Both the position numbers and the translations under genes were made by a program. A model generated the notes under the pieces. That model saw only the letters and a program-made list of their open reading frames with translations. It did not search any database and was not told where the DNA came from. From Bacteroidia bacterium (GTDB lineage: Bacteria > Bacteroidota > Bacteroidia > UKL13-3), in assembly GCA_023151275.1 (NCBI GenBank), contig JAKLJI010000001.1, forward strand, positions 458,409 to 522,408: DNA of 64,000 bases, given 5' to 3'. Shown here one piece after another: positions 3,690 through 57,200 of the stretch (its first letter is position 1; every line of letters begins with the position of its first letter).

Positions 3690-5147
3690 TCAAGTTGTTG
3701 GATTGGGAAATTGCAAGGAGATGGTAGTTCCGCTGTTTTCTGCACTTTGTATTCTAATTTTTCCCTGGTGTTGATCCATGTACTCCTTAATAAGTGGAAG
3801 ACCAAGGCCGGTACTTGTTTCATTTTCGGTGCCCGAACGTCCGGTTTTTTCACCAACTTGAAAGAGTCGTTTTAGAAGGTCTTGACTTATCCCCATTCCT
3901 GTATCTGTAATTTGAATGGACGTTTCAAGTTCGTTTGTTGTGGCAACCAAGGTAACTAAGCCATTCCTGAAGGTAAATTTTAATGCATTGCTAAGTAAGT
4001 TGCGTATGATGGTTTGAAACATTTTTTGATCAGCAACTACACTTGCGTCCCTAGGAATTGTTAATTTTAGTTCAATGTTTTTGGATTGAAAACCCTCTTC
4101 CATGAAGGAAACACAAAGATTTACTTCTTTTAGAACATTGAGAAGAACCGGCTTAAACTCTTTTTTTCCATCTCGAATTGTAGCCCATTCCAAGAGGTTA
4201 TCAACCAATTGATATAGATTTACAGAGAGTTTGTTGAGTCGGTTAGTATATTCCTGAACCTTTTCAGGGGATAAGTTTTTTAGGTTTTCTGCTAGCAGTT
4301 GGGACAACGAAATAAGGCCTTGAAAGGGGCTTCTCAAGTCGTGTGCAATTATTTTAACAAAGCGGTCTTTTTCGGCGTTTATTTCTTTCAGTTCCTTTTC
4401 GTTCTTGGTTAATTGGTCCCTAATGTGAATGAGTTCGGTAATATCCCGGCTATAGCTTAGCACTGTTGCTGTTTTACCATCGCTACTTTTTTCAGGAATT
4501 AAACTCCAGTTCACGTATCTATTTATTTCATCTATAGCTGTAATTTCCTGGTGCTTGATTCCGGTTTCAAAAACTTGTTTTATTTGTTTTTCCCAGTGCT
4601 CAACTTCTTCTTTTTTGAATCCTTGTTCGGTAAGTGATTTGCCAATAAAAAATTCTGGAGGTAAACTAAAATAATCGAAGGTTGCATGGTTAGCAAAAAC
4701 AGGTTTTATTTCTTTATTAAAACGAATGATTAGGTCAACAGTGCTTTCGGTTAACAATCGGTAATTGTATTCACTTTGTTTCAGAGCACTCTCTGATTCC
4801 AGTTGTTTGCTGATATCTTTAATAACAACCAATCTGGCTTGTTTTTTATCCCATGTTATAGTTTGGGCAAGCAATTCGGCATAGATAAGTTTACCGGAAT
4901 GTGTCTTGTGTAACCAAATTTCCGATTGGCTTGGCTGATTTAAGTTAAGGGTACTAAGGTTATTTTCAAGATGTTCCAATTCCTCCGGAGGCCGAATATC
5001 CCGAATGGTCATGGATAGAAACTCCTCCCTCGAGTATTCATATAAATCAATAGCAGCTTGGTTTACTTCCAGAAACCGGAGTGTCTGAGTACAGAACACC
5101 CAAGATGGAAGTGGATTTAGCCAGAAGAGGGAGTGGTAGTTGGCCAT
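3690..5147 (-). CDS. Cytoplasmic PAS-PAS sensor histidine kinase
   Basis: 485 residues without membrane segments. Two PAS domains (about 5-120 and 125-245) precede a dimerisation domain with phosphoacceptor H269 in IIAHDLRSP and an HATPase_c domain carrying the N box (NLLSNALKF), G1 box (DTGMG) and G2 box (GLGLPL). An orthodox kinase with no receiver, so it should phosphorylate a partner encoded elsewhere; no response regulator is adjacent. It is transcribed away from the tRNA gene. A consensus -7 box lies four bases before the ATG. Signal unknown. Confidence 0.93.
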   Translation of the reverse strand: MANYHSLFWLNPLPSWVFCTQTLRFLEVNQAAIDLYEYSREEFLSMTIRDIRPPEELEHLENNLSTLNLNQPSQSEIWLHKTHSGKLIYAELLAQTITWDKKQARLVVIKDISKQLESESALKQSEYNYRLLTESTVDLIIRFNKEIKPVFANHATFDYFSLPPEFFIGKSLTEQGFKKEEVEHWEKQIKQVFETGIKHQEITAIDEINRYVNWSLIPEKSSDGKTATVLSYSRDITELIHIRDQLTKNEKELKEINAEKDRFVKIIAHDLRSPFQGLISLSQLLAENLKNLSPEKVQEYTNRLNKLSVNLYQLVDNLLEWATIRDGKKEFKPVLLNVLKEVNLCVSFMEEGFQSKNIELKLTIPRDASVVADQKMFQTIIRNLLSNALKFTFRNGLVTLVATTNELETSIQITDTGMGISQDLLKRLFQVGEKTGRSGTENETSTGLGLPLIKEYMDQHQGKIRIQSAENSGTTISLQFPNPTT

Positions 5148-53720: not shown

Positions 53721-54851
53721 ATGAAAAGCAATTCTCGCAGAGGTTTTTTAGGGAGATTAGGACTCGTCATTAGTGCGGCAGTTGTTTCACCTTTGGAGCA
53801 AGCTGCCCAGGGTATTCGAAAAACAGTACAGACCATGAATCCAATTCTTGAAGTGAAGCCAATGGGCTTTCAATGGGAGACTCTTGATCCCTTTTTATTT
53901 TGCGTACACCACGAAGATGATTTCCCACGCGGGAACGACCAAATGGGCCCGGCAGCTTCTTTAACCGGACGTAGTTTGGGCGATGATTTTATCATCAAAG
54001 ATGGGTTTAGAATGTATCATGGTAAGCAGGTACCGGGATTTCCAGGCCATCCTCACCGTGGATTTGAAACAATTACGGTGGTTCGAAAAGGTTTGGTAGA
54101 TCATGCCGATTCTATGGGTGCAGCTGGGCGTTATGGAAATGGCGATGTGCAATGGATGACCGCAGGTGGGGGAGTTCAGCACTCAGAAATGTTTCCTCTG
54201 CTTAACAAAGACAAAGGCAATCCACTTGAGCTGTTTCAGATTTGGCTGAATCTACCCGCCAAAAGCAAAATGGTAAAGCCGCATTTTAAAATGTTTTGGG
54301 CTGAACAGATTCCGCAGGTGGTGAATACAGATGCGCAGGGCAAGAAAACTCGTGTTGAAGTAATAGCAGGTAAACTCGGAAAATCAAAAGCCTTGCAACC
54401 ACCGCCTGATTCATGGGCTGCAGATCCTCTTCATGAAGTAGCAGTGTGGAATATTTTGATGGATGAACAGGCAGAATTCACCTTACCTGCCGCCGGAAAA
54501 GAGATCAACCGCATGCTTTATTTTTACGAAGGCGAACAATTGCTAATCGATGGAAACCCGGTTTCTTCCTACAAATCTGTTCGTGTTTTGGGTTCTGCTT
54601 CACTTAAGCTTAAGGCAGCTAAAGGAAAAGCTCAAATTCTTGTATTGCAAGGAAAGCCCATCAATGAACAAGTTATTCAATATGGGCCTTTTGTAATGAA
54701 TACTAAAGAAGAAATTAAAGCAGCCTTTGATGACTATCACCGAACTGGTTTTGGTGGTTGGCCATGGAAAAAGGCCGATCAGGTGCACGATAGAAGCCTC
54801 GGTCGCTTTGCTAAGCATGCAGATGGCAAACAAGAAAAGCCGGGAGTTTAA
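53721..54851 (+). CDS. Pirin-family cupin with twin-arginine signal peptide
   Basis: 376 residues, longer than the usual about 230-300. The N-terminus SRRGFLGRLGLVISAAVV is a twin-arginine signal, so export in folded form, perhaps with bound metal, is predicted; most pirins are cytoplasmic or nuclear. The N-terminal cupin carries the metal ligands in PGHPHRGFETIT and GGGVQHSEM. The second half is a pirin C-terminal cupin with an extension ending in a Lys-rich tail. Some pirins are quercetin dioxygenases, others regulators; the role here is unknown. It is divergent from the LOV operon and convergent with the Cys-rich peptide gene. Confidence 0.88.
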   Translation: MKSNSRRGFLGRLGLVISAAVVSPLEQAAQGIRKTVQTMNPILEVKPMGFQWETLDPFLFCVHHEDDFPRGNDQMGPAASLTGRSLGDDFIIKDGFRMYHGKQVPGFPGHPHRGFETITVVRKGLVDHADSMGAAGRYGNGDVQWMTAGGGVQHSEMFPLLNKDKGNPLELFQIWLNLPAKSKMVKPHFKMFWAEQIPQVVNTDAQGKKTRVEVIAGKLGKSKALQPPPDSWAADPLHEVAVWNILMDEQAEFTLPAAGKEINRMLYFYEGEQLLIDGNPVSSYKSVRVLGSASLKLKAAKGKAQILVLQGKPINEQVIQYGPFVMNTKEEIKAAFDDYHRTGFGGWPWKKADQVHDRSLGRFAKHADGKQEKPGV

Positions 54852-54859
54852 TCACTCCC
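54842..54859 (+). terminator. Weak hairpin at the pirin stop
   Basis: GGGAGT (54842-54847) pairs with ACTCCC (54854-54859) around a loop that includes the stop codon; a pyrimidine-rich tail follows. Lies between convergent genes. Confidence 0.4.
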
Positions 54860-54866
54860 AGCTCCT

Positions 54867-55136
54867 TTATTTCTTTTCTTCTTTGGGTTCAGCTGCTTTT
54901 TCAGTTTTGCAGTGGTCTTTGCAGGATTTCTTTTCTTCTGCACTGCACTTTTCTGAGTCTTTGTGCTTTTTGTCGTGACTGCATTTTTCCTTGTCGGTTT
55001 TGCATTCTTTTTTGTCTTTGCAACATTCTTTTTTGTTACCGTTTTTGTCGTCGCAAGCTTTTGAGTTAACAGCAGCAGAAAGTAAGGTGATTCCGAAGAA
55101 CAGGGCGCTTATGCCCATCAAGATTCTTTTTTTCAT
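54867..55136 (-). CDS. Small secreted Cys/Lys-rich peptide, possible metal-binding protein
   Basis: 89 residues: a signal peptide (about 1-24, ending SAAVNSKA), then a mature region with eight Cys spread among Lys, Glu and Asp (CDDKNGNKKECC, KECKTDKEKC, KSCKDHC). The Cys spacing and charge resemble metallothionein-like or periplasmic metal-buffering peptides; no family is recognised. It is divergent from a two-component system whose sensor also has a Cys cluster in its periplasmic loop, suggesting a shared stimulus (metal or thiol stress). A consensus -7 box is 19 bases before the ATG. Confidence 0.75.
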   Translation of the reverse strand: MKKRILMGISALFFGITLLSAAVNSKACDDKNGNKKECCKDKKECKTDKEKCSHDKKHKDSEKCSAEEKKSCKDHCKTEKAAEPKEEKK

Positions 55137-55155
55137 GGTTTGTAATTTGGTTTGA

Positions 55156-55163
55156 CAAAGGTA
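55156..55163 (-). promoter_or_regulatory. -7 box of the Cys-rich peptide gene
   Basis: TACCTTTG on the minus strand matches TAnnTTTG, ending 19 bases before the ATG. Its -33 region lies within the direct-repeat array at 55183-55222. Confidence 0.5.
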
Positions 55164-55182
55164 GTTTGCTCAGTAACCCAGT

Positions 55183-55222
55183 GTTGTTATCAACTTGTTA
55201 GTGGCTTGTTAACGACTTGTTA
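55183..55222 (+). promoter_or_regulatory. Four phased direct repeats, probable OmpR-type regulator binding array
   Basis: GTTGTTA (55183-55189), then CTTGTTA at 55194-55200, 55205-55211 and 55216-55222. The spacing is exactly 11 bp each time, one helical turn, as in binding sites of OmpR/PhoB-family regulators. It lies between the divergent -7 boxes at 55156-55163 and 55250-55257, so the adjacent regulator could control both its own operon and the Cys-rich peptide. Confidence 0.65.
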
Positions 55223-55249
55223 ATGCCTCAAGGAAATGGATTAAAGACC

Positions 55250-55257
55250 TACTTTTG
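55250..55257 (+). promoter_or_regulatory. -7 box of the two-component operon
   Basis: TACTTTTG matches TAnnTTTG and ends four bases before the GTG at 55262, supporting that start and a nearly leaderless transcript. A -33 TTTG is absent; the phased repeats end 27 bases upstream, consistent with activation. Confidence 0.55.
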
Positions 55258-55261
55258 TGCT

Positions 55262-56533
55262 GTGAAAAGCCTACAAGGAGCCCGTATTTTGATTGTAAGT
55301 GTTGTTGTGTTGATTGCTTTATTGGGCATTCAAATCAGCTGGCTTATTCAAATGGCTCAAGCCAAGGAGCAACTGTTCAATGAAAAGGCTGAACTGGTGC
55401 TTTCGCGAACAGCTATTGCCATTTGTGAAAATCGGGAGAGTTGCCAAAATATTGGCCGTTGTTGCAGAGACAACGAAATGGGTAAGGGTCCGCTGGAAAT
55501 GCCCGATGCAGAGCATGCCAGAATTGATTCTTTACTTCGTTGGAATATGGCTCAGATAGGTATGGATATTCCTTTTTCTTTTGAACTATCACAGCATTCT
55601 GAAGCAGAATCTGAAGAGGAAGAGGCCTTGGAGCATGGGAAGAGTGTATTTCAAAAACGCATAGAAGAAATTGTAAGTAGAAACGGCGTTGTGCTCAAGC
55701 TAATTCTTCCAGGGAGAAAAGCTTTCATCTTGCAGGAAACAGGCATTCTTTTTATGAGTTCAGTATTGTTGTTGCTTGTTGTTTTTTACCTCTTTCTGAT
55801 GATGTTGAAGCAATGGAAAAAGGAGAAAGAACTTAGCCAACGCACCCTGGATTTTTTAAATATCATGGCACATGAATTTAAAACGCCACTTACAACCATG
55901 CGTCTTGCTGTAAAAACCATGTTGCGTTCATCCAAAGAAGATCCGGATAAGCTGTTGCAAGTCCTGTTGAATGAAAATAAAAAGCTTGAATCGCAGGTTG
56001 AGCGCGTATTGCTAATGAGTGCGGTTGAGAAGAATGAATGGGCTTCAAAAGCACAGGTTATTCATGCCGATGCTGTAGTTTCTGCTGCTGTTGACTCCAT
56101 GGCTTTGCGCATTCAGGATTGTAATGCCACTATTGATTTGCAGTTGATGGCAGGCGATGCTTTAATCAAAATAGACCCCAATAACCTGGAAGCAATTCTT
56201 AGAAACCTATTGGAAAATGCCATGAAGTACAGCAGGGATAAGCCAAGAATTGAAATTCGCAGCCAGTTGGAAAAGCATTCTTATGTGCTAGAAATTGCAG
56301 ATCAGGGAATAGGTATTGCTCCTGAATTTAGAGAACGAGTACTTGAGCCTTTTTACCGAATTCCTGGTCCCAATGCTGAGCAAGTAAACGGCTATGGGCT
56401 TGGTCTGACTTATGTGAATCAACTCGTAAAGTTTGCCGGAGGAACCCTGAATATCCAAACCAATTTGCCACAAGGAACCCGCATTCAACTTCAATTCCCC
56501 AAATGCCATGAAGCCGAAGATTCTTTTAGTTGA
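55262..56533 (+). CDS. Two-TM sensor histidine kinase with Cys-containing periplasmic domain (RprX-like)
   Basis: 423 residues from GTG at 55262; the frame is open to a TTG at 55217, but that lies upstream of the -7 box. TM1 about 7-28, periplasmic loop about 30-160 with a cluster ENRESCQNIGRCCRDNE, TM2 about 163-185, dimerisation domain with H204 in MAHEFKTPL and HATPase_c (NLLENAMKY, DQGIGI, GLGLTYV). Overlaps the regulator gene by 26 bases: a classic pair. The four clustered periplasmic Cys suggest metal or redox sensing. Confidence 0.92.
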   Translation: MKSLQGARILIVSVVVLIALLGIQISWLIQMAQAKEQLFNEKAELVLSRTAIAICENRESCQNIGRCCRDNEMGKGPLEMPDAEHARIDSLLRWNMAQIGMDIPFSFELSQHSEAESEEEEALEHGKSVFQKRIEEIVSRNGVVLKLILPGRKAFILQETGILFMSSVLLLLVVFYLFLMMLKQWKKEKELSQRTLDFLNIMAHEFKTPLTTMRLAVKTMLRSSKEDPDKLLQVLLNENKKLESQVERVLLMSAVEKNEWASKAQVIHADAVVSAAVDSMALRIQDCNATIDLQLMAGDALIKIDPNNLEAILRNLLENAMKYSRDKPRIEIRSQLEKHSYVLEIADQGIGIAPEFRERVLEPFYRIPGPNAEQVNGYGLGLTYVNQLVKFAGGTLNIQTNLPQGTRIQLQFPKCHEAEDSFS

Positions 56534-57200
56534 AGACGATGAAACACTAGGTAACCTGCTTAGCAATTATCTCCGTTCAGAAGAAATGGAAGTTTGCCAT
56601 TTAACCAATGGTCAACAGGCCTTGTTGGAAGCCGAAAAATCAAGATATGATTTGTTTCTTTTTGACATTATGCTTCCCGGAAAAACGGGTTATGAATTAG
56701 CAAAAGGAGTACGAAAACTCTTTCCAGCAATACCCTTAATTTTCATCAGTGCCAGGTCGCTAAAATCAGATAAGTTGATGGGCTACGAAACCGGTGCAGA
56801 TGACTACATTACCAAGCCTTTTGATGAAGAAGAATTGCTTTGGAAGATAAAGGCCTTGCTTCGCAGAAATGCCCCGGAAGGCCCAGTGGACGAGGTTTTT
56901 CAATTTGGTAGTTTGCAGTTCACTCCACAACTTCAATTGCTTCGTACAAGCTCCGGCGAGCGCAGATTGACGCAGAAAGAATCGCAACTGTTGGCAGTAT
57001 TCTTCAAGAATCTTGATCGCGTAATTAAGCGTGAGGACTTACTGTTTGAAGTATGGGGCCAGAACGATTATTTTCTGGGTAGAAGCCTGGATGTGTTCAT
57101 TGCTAAATTGCGCAAATACCTCAAAGATGAACCACAGTTGAGCATTGAGACCATTTTCGGGGCAGGCTTTGTGTTGAAAAGCAAATCGATTGAATCCTGA
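56508..57200 (+). CDS. OmpR-family response regulator (RprY-like)
   Basis: 230 residues. Receiver with D10/D11, phosphoacceptor D53 in LFDIMLPGKTG, switch Ser in FISAR and Lys in ITKPF; then a winged-helix Trans_reg_C domain (about 130-228) with RRLTQKESQLLAVF and the SLDVFIAKLRKYL recognition helix. Coupled to the kinase. The likely target is the four-repeat array upstream of the kinase gene. Confidence 0.95.
   Translation: MKPKILLVEDDETLGNLLSNYLRSEEMEVCHLTNGQQALLEAEKSRYDLFLFDIMLPGKTGYELAKGVRKLFPAIPLIFISARSLKSDKLMGYETGADDYITKPFDEEELLWKIKALLRRNAPEGPVDEVFQFGSLQFTPQLQLLRTSSGERRLTQKESQLLAVFFKNLDRVIKREDLLFEVWGQNDYFLGRSLDVFIAKLRKYLKDEPQLSIETIFGAGFVLKSKSIES

Follow-up and report, generated by a model that had tools for sequence, protein, structure and literature searches.

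An array of four phased repeats with a -7 box on either side, conserved between a histidine kinase-regulator operon and a divergent exported protein gene in Bacteroidota

We analysed a window of 64,000 nucleotides (the whole stretch of DNA under study) from a genome of the class Bacteroidia, focusing on the intergenic region that separates a two-component operon from a divergently oriented gene for an exported, Cys-rich peptide (Table 1). The peptide has no match in Pfam or NCBIfam, and because it lacks a family match, the "metal/redox" label that a preliminary description gave to the divergent genes is still a guess. Terminator-like hairpins of the kind found past the peptide gene are expected by chance in equal number in the scanned region. 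The GTG start of the kinase was inferred from alignment; its sensor region contains four Cys, a CC pair among them. When the N-terminus of the kinase was modelled (mean pLDDT 75), structural matches were only middling, with Z of at most 5.6, and WalK sensor domains (Z 5.4 and 5.2) were mixed among them with unrelated dynein light chains. The receiver (PF00072) and winged-helix Trans_reg_C (PF00486) domains of the regulator both score above cut-off, which bears out the claim that the adjacent operon encodes an OmpR/PhoB-type regulator. Its top curated profile is RprY (NF051850), at 206.7 bits and thus below the cut-off of 370. OmpR-type regulators have 37 matches in this genome. The regulator gene is followed by genes for a pirin and a glycosidase-like protein.

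Table 1. Features around the repeat array (window coordinates)
Feature	Coordinates	Strand	Remarks
Terminator-like hairpin past Cys-rich peptide gene	54835..54866	-	13 pairs, 6 GC
Exported Cys/Lys-rich peptide, 89 aa	54867..55136	-	Signal-peptide-like N-terminus, 8 Cys after residue 20
-7 box TACCTTTG, divergent gene	55156..55163	-	22 bp ahead of first GTTA
Candidate operator array	55183..55222	+	Four heptamers, 11-bp pitch; conserved 5' of orthologous kinase
-7 box TACTTTTG, kinase/regulator operon	55250..55257	+	27 bp past last GTTA
Histidine kinase	55262..56533	+	N-terminal sensor region, HisKA, HATPase_c
OmpR/PhoB-type response regulator	56508..57200	+	Response_reg and Trans_reg_C; overlaps kinase gene end

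The array consists of GTTGTTA (55183-55189) followed by three copies of CTTGTTA (55194-55200, 55205-55211 and 55216-55222), as read directly from the sequence, with an exact pitch of 11/11/11; copies and spacing are as the preliminary description had placed them. Four copies of TTGTTA separated by five nucleotides match once in the window and in none of 100 dinucleotide shuffles, and a tandem repeat finder also called an 11-bp array at 55184-55223. The pair CTTGTTA-N4-CTTGTTA, proposed earlier as a probe for the regulon, occurs twice in the entire genome (3.9 Mb), both times within this array, and its reversed control not at all. Loosening the heptamer pairs to at most 3 mismatches gave 8 matches in the window against 9.5 expected, that is, no enrichment. 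Only one four-copy array in the genome is perfect; three more matches have 1 mismatch, overlap one another (contig C18, 7819-7877) and look unlike the array at 55183-55222. With only one perfect array, a large regulon is not seen in this genome, and judging from these counts the regulon looks local. Across the class, three copies of TTGTTA alone are found in only 6 of 395 genomes, in some of which the reversed control scores too, and we therefore rejected the heptamer by itself as a genomic marker.

Both flanking boxes fit the TAnnTTTG -7 box of the Bacteroidota sigma-A promoter, a consensus whose position is given as -12 to -5 (PMC9723704). At 17-23 bp upstream, both boxes lack a TTG, so that neither side has a -33 element, just as had been claimed. 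Since the -7 box occupies -12 to -5, transcription is predicted to start at about 55262 (+) for the kinase operon and at about 55151 (-) for the divergent gene, the latter with a leader of about 15 nt. The predicted start at 55262 coincides with the GTG codon of the kinase, and the kinase mRNA may thus be leaderless or nearly so; leaders in relatives are a few nucleotides long.

To follow the element through the class, we searched 395 genomes with a profile built from 5 sequences of the kinase N-terminus. The kinase family is present in 18 of them at E<=1.7e-51, with the next match at 6.6e-36 and the one after at 1e-25, leaving a clear gap; the 18 genomes span 12 genera. All sixteen GTTA letters are found upstream of the kinase in 16 of the 18 (the exceptions are L178, with 13/16, and L184, with 14/16). 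The downstream -7 box lies at 27-29 bp in 16 as well, being at 39 bp in L170 and degenerate in L182, and the upstream, divergent -7 box lies at 21-22 bp in 16, being missing in L178 and L180. The 39 bp of L170 (genome G045) equal the usual 28 plus one 11-bp unit, a natural helical-phase variant. Among 12 distant kinase homologues examined, ten are without a full array, L190 has a perfect one and L187 has 15/16 letters; L185, also a distant homologue, retains two copies and the box at 29 bp. At two loci (L047 and L177) the kinase gene is truncated and no regulator follows, while operator and both boxes are intact, an apparent decay of the kinase system.

We also scanned named genomes from the side of the array, using four copies of GTTA with a -7 box 15-45 bp downstream, and obtained at least 80 loci. 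Among the matches listed, the array-to-box spacing peaks at 28 bp (27-29 bp in 32 of 68 single-placement loci), and the best-scoring loci precede kinases of the same family (MKxNRTY...). Nearly all of these best-scoring loci have the divergent box 21-22 bp upstream, though it was absent from the query. Pooling and deduplication left 42 unique arrays, of which 26 derive from the scan, so that their GTTA letters and downstream box were selected for by the query. A kinase is seen downstream of 39; two loci (L106 and L126) end just past the array, and one (L104) has no kinase within 3.4 kb. The regulator gene comes next in 32 of the 42, eight loci end too early, and the remaining two are L047, with its truncated kinase, and L104. 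The upstream box lies at 22 bp in 34 arrays, at 21 bp in 2, and is absent in 6; at any other offset it occurs at none of 1512 positions over the 42 arrays. The downstream box lies at 28 bp in 27, at 27 bp in 6 and at 29 bp in 4, and by the pooled count it is missing within 45 bp in five, which include L170 with its box at 39 bp. The consensus of the family is TTGTTAtTGAgTAGTTATTGgcTTGTTAAtGACTTGTTA; the second heptamer of the window departs from that of the family.

The combination of array and divergent box is specific. It is present in 20 of 395 class genomes (reversed control 0 among the matches listed), namely 15 of the 18 that bear the kinase versus 5 of the 377 others (Fisher p=2e-20); the pattern was derived from kinase loci, so presence there is partly by construction and the rarity elsewhere is the informative part. 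Two of these five other genomes (G330 and G035) carry distant kinase homologues, and in the other three the array letters differ. In G035, a gene for a Cys-rich peptide has the full array at its 5' side, with the distant kinase homologue some 8 kb away. The array, the two boxes, their fixed spacings, their conservation and the gene linkage are thus directly observed, and by its conservation we judge the array to be a regulatory element found in many Bacteroidota.

A pattern of the box plus three copies matches at 24 places in 20 genomes: 16 kinase loci, 5 stand-alone arrays and 3 places with other letters (L228, which overlaps a phosphate-gene array, L241 and L242). The stand-alone arrays (L201/L231, L206/L236, L221/L247, L237 and L246) belong to four kinase-bearing relatives. 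Of the two sides, only that at 21-22 bp is retained in them. The genes they precede encode exported proteins, one of which contains DUF4920. For L237 and L246, the pattern that identified them matched three perfect copies. In the same genomes, GTTA arrays with 11-bp pitch and other letters (L215, L216, L217, L218 and L220) precede pst and pit/phoU-like genes, which we named by eye from sequence. They lie on the same side, with a -7 box at about 21-22 bp where read, and are probably the Pho boxes of these Bacteroidota. Because stand-alone and phosphate-gene arrays share that side, we read the side facing the Cys-rich peptide as the one normally used for activation, and the side facing the kinase as a route of positive autoregulation.

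The divergent products at the 42 arrays fall into many unrelated sequence clusters: 13 are Cys-rich peptides, 6 are haem-c (CxxCH) lipoproteins, 9 are small proteins with a C-terminal Cys, and the other 14 are of further kinds, 8 of them again with Cys at the end. With the Cys-rich and haem-c products set aside, the last residue is Cys in 17 of 23 (the remaining six include one truncated product, one that is missing and one that extends past its locus). For comparison, among the ORFs of 70 aa or longer in the 80 scan loci, 26 of 520 end in Cys, a background that includes some of the divergent proteins. Further genes of the divergent operons encode TonB_C-like proteins ending in GGxGC. The Cys endings, from divergent operons or stand-alone arrays (L064, L066, L075, L076, L093, L096, L101, L104, L106, L107, L110, L113, L115, L118, L126, L168, L170, L181, L182, L183, L237 and L246), are often ...GGxGC, SGC, DGC or DNC and belong to small lipoproteins, Reg_prop propellers and TonB_C-like proteins. 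They possibly constitute an undescribed C-terminal tag. The window's own Cys-rich peptide is without such an ending.

On the kinase tree, which has several weak forks and long branches for L171 (the window), L184 and L187, the four partner labels require 9 changes against a possible minimum of 3. The partner thus seems to have been exchanged repeatedly, with operator and kinase constant. The kinases linked to a Cys-rich partner have 4-6 Cys in the sensor region (n = 12); among the 26 others the number is 0-3 in 24, and 4 and 6 in the remaining two (rank test p=3e-6). The one with 6, L187, was counted among the others and its partner is Cys-rich by eye. The Cys-rich label needs only 2 changes on the tree and so reflects few independent events, which makes the apparent tracking of sensor Cys number with a Cys-rich partner suggestive only.

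We consider it highly probable, from the sequence comparisons above, that the array serves as an autoregulatory operator, acting in both directions, for the linked OmpR/PhoB-type regulator, which would activate both promoters. Tandem head-to-tail sites at a pitch of 10-11 bp mark operators of this type, and the pitch here is exactly 11 bp. The proposal that such an operator lies here is further supported by the conserved array, the box spacings and the linkage of kinase and regulator with an exported partner, and the predicted service of both the Cys-rich peptide and the two-component genes by the conserved spacing to both -7 boxes. The regulator was assigned to the array by linkage; its binding, the dependence on phosphorylation and activation in preference to repression are what we infer. 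In the proposed mechanism, the kinase would phosphorylate the regulator, whose dimers would then line up head to tail along a single face of the DNA, at the four sites phased by 11 bp. The bound regulator would replace the missing -33 contacts and recruit polymerase to both outward-facing -7 boxes. At a distance of 22 bp, on the side common to the stand-alone copies, it would act on the promoter of the Cys-rich exported peptide; at 27 bp, on the other side, it would act on that of the kinase-regulator operon, resulting in positive feedback.

The same operator could instead be used by the regulator to repress one or both promoters, with phosphorylation relieving the repression (negative autoregulation). 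RprY, the nearest named family by profile score, is placed among repressor-acting regulators in an excerpt of PMC6032018. We nevertheless regard repression as unlikely: the array overlaps neither -7 box and sits upstream of both at activator-like distances, neither promoter has a -33 element, and the phosphate-gene arrays of the same type are placed identically. Less likely still, and in our view improbable, is that the array serves another regulator, such as PhoB, and that the linked kinase is incidental. The phosphate-gene arrays of relatives do share GTTA at 11-bp pitch, yet array and kinase co-occur in 12 genera, the conserved letters between the GTTA copies (TGA, TTG, AYGAC) are unlike those of the phosphate arrays, and the window locus has no phosphate genes. 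Cross-recognition of the array by other OmpR-type regulators is possible, given their number in this genome and the phased GTTA-like sites of the phosphate arrays. An RNA leader element or a plain tandem-repeat expansion, as the 11-bp call of the repeat finder might suggest, can practically be dismissed, since both boxes are downstream of the array, which thus falls outside both predicted transcripts, Rfam gave no match up to E=1 across 54700-55500, and the distances to both boxes stay fixed in diverged genomes.

Several known systems resemble the proposed two-way operator. The cpxP gene is arranged divergently from cpxRA, which encodes an OmpR-type regulator, and CpxP belongs to the CpxP/Spy family. 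Both loci combine a kinase-regulator operon with a small exported protein that is, or here would be, under regulator control. The window array has a different repeat and promoter class, its partner is Cys-rich and without the Pfam or NCBIfam match that would place it in CpxP/Spy, and relatives swap the partner gene for unrelated exported proteins. In Escherichia coli, CpxP is described as a small periplasmic protein under regulator control that inhibits the kinase (PMC2731931). At zraP/zraSR, similarly, one intergenic site is reported to serve a divergent periplasmic Zn-containing accessory protein and a kinase-regulator operon, with a near single-target regulon and ZraR listed as NtrC-type (PMC8249747); the regulator here has OmpR/PhoB-type domains instead. 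RprXY is approached through the best curated profile, and the score below cut-off keeps the regulator out of that family; excerpts of PMC3646045 and PMC6032018 contain no RprY operator sequence. Pho boxes and PhoB arrays likewise have head-to-tail 11-bp sites in place of the -35/-33 element, but the window array differs in letters and genes and has four copies flanked by boxes on both sides, and its neighbours are the Cys-rich peptide, kinase and regulator genes rather than phosphate-starvation genes. Because the defining feature of each is lacking, we do not file the locus under any of the four. Our best reading is that the layout resembles cpxP/cpxRA and zraP/zraSR, but that its promoters are of the Bacteroidota kind and its Cys-bearing partners can be exchanged. 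The literature search, among the matches listed, returned no described operator for such an OmpR/PhoB-type regulator in Bacteroidota.

CpxP and ZraP feed back on their own kinases or buffer their signal, and by analogy we would guess that the Cys-rich protein exported here does likewise, acting back on the Cys-bearing sensor region of the kinase or buffering the signal, which might be a thiophilic metal or the thiol redox state. A tentative extension, which we hold to be possible though rather doubtful, is that the system senses thiols in the envelope and has a modular output, made up of thiol-presenting exported proteins. If so, the sensor Cys of the kinase would read the thiol state or a thiophilic metal, the outputs would be Cys-rich peptides, haem-c lipoproteins and unrelated proteins tagged with ...Gly-Cys, and ...Gly-Cys would be a new kind of regulon-wide C-terminal marker. 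The two-sided geometry (22 bp versus about 28 bp) makes the putative operator readable from sequence and searchable in genomes. The finding marks an uncharacterised signalling family together with a set of exported Cys-bearing proteins in which a C-terminal Cys recurs; these proteins point to an envelope function, as yet unexplained, that involves thiols or metal.

In Bacteroides/Phocaeicola, a different kinase-regulator pair (L048, at 4811-4884, L050 and L078) has a GTTA array 28-29 bp before a -7 box. Given this comparable spacing, the kinase-side layout may be more general for kinase-regulator operons.
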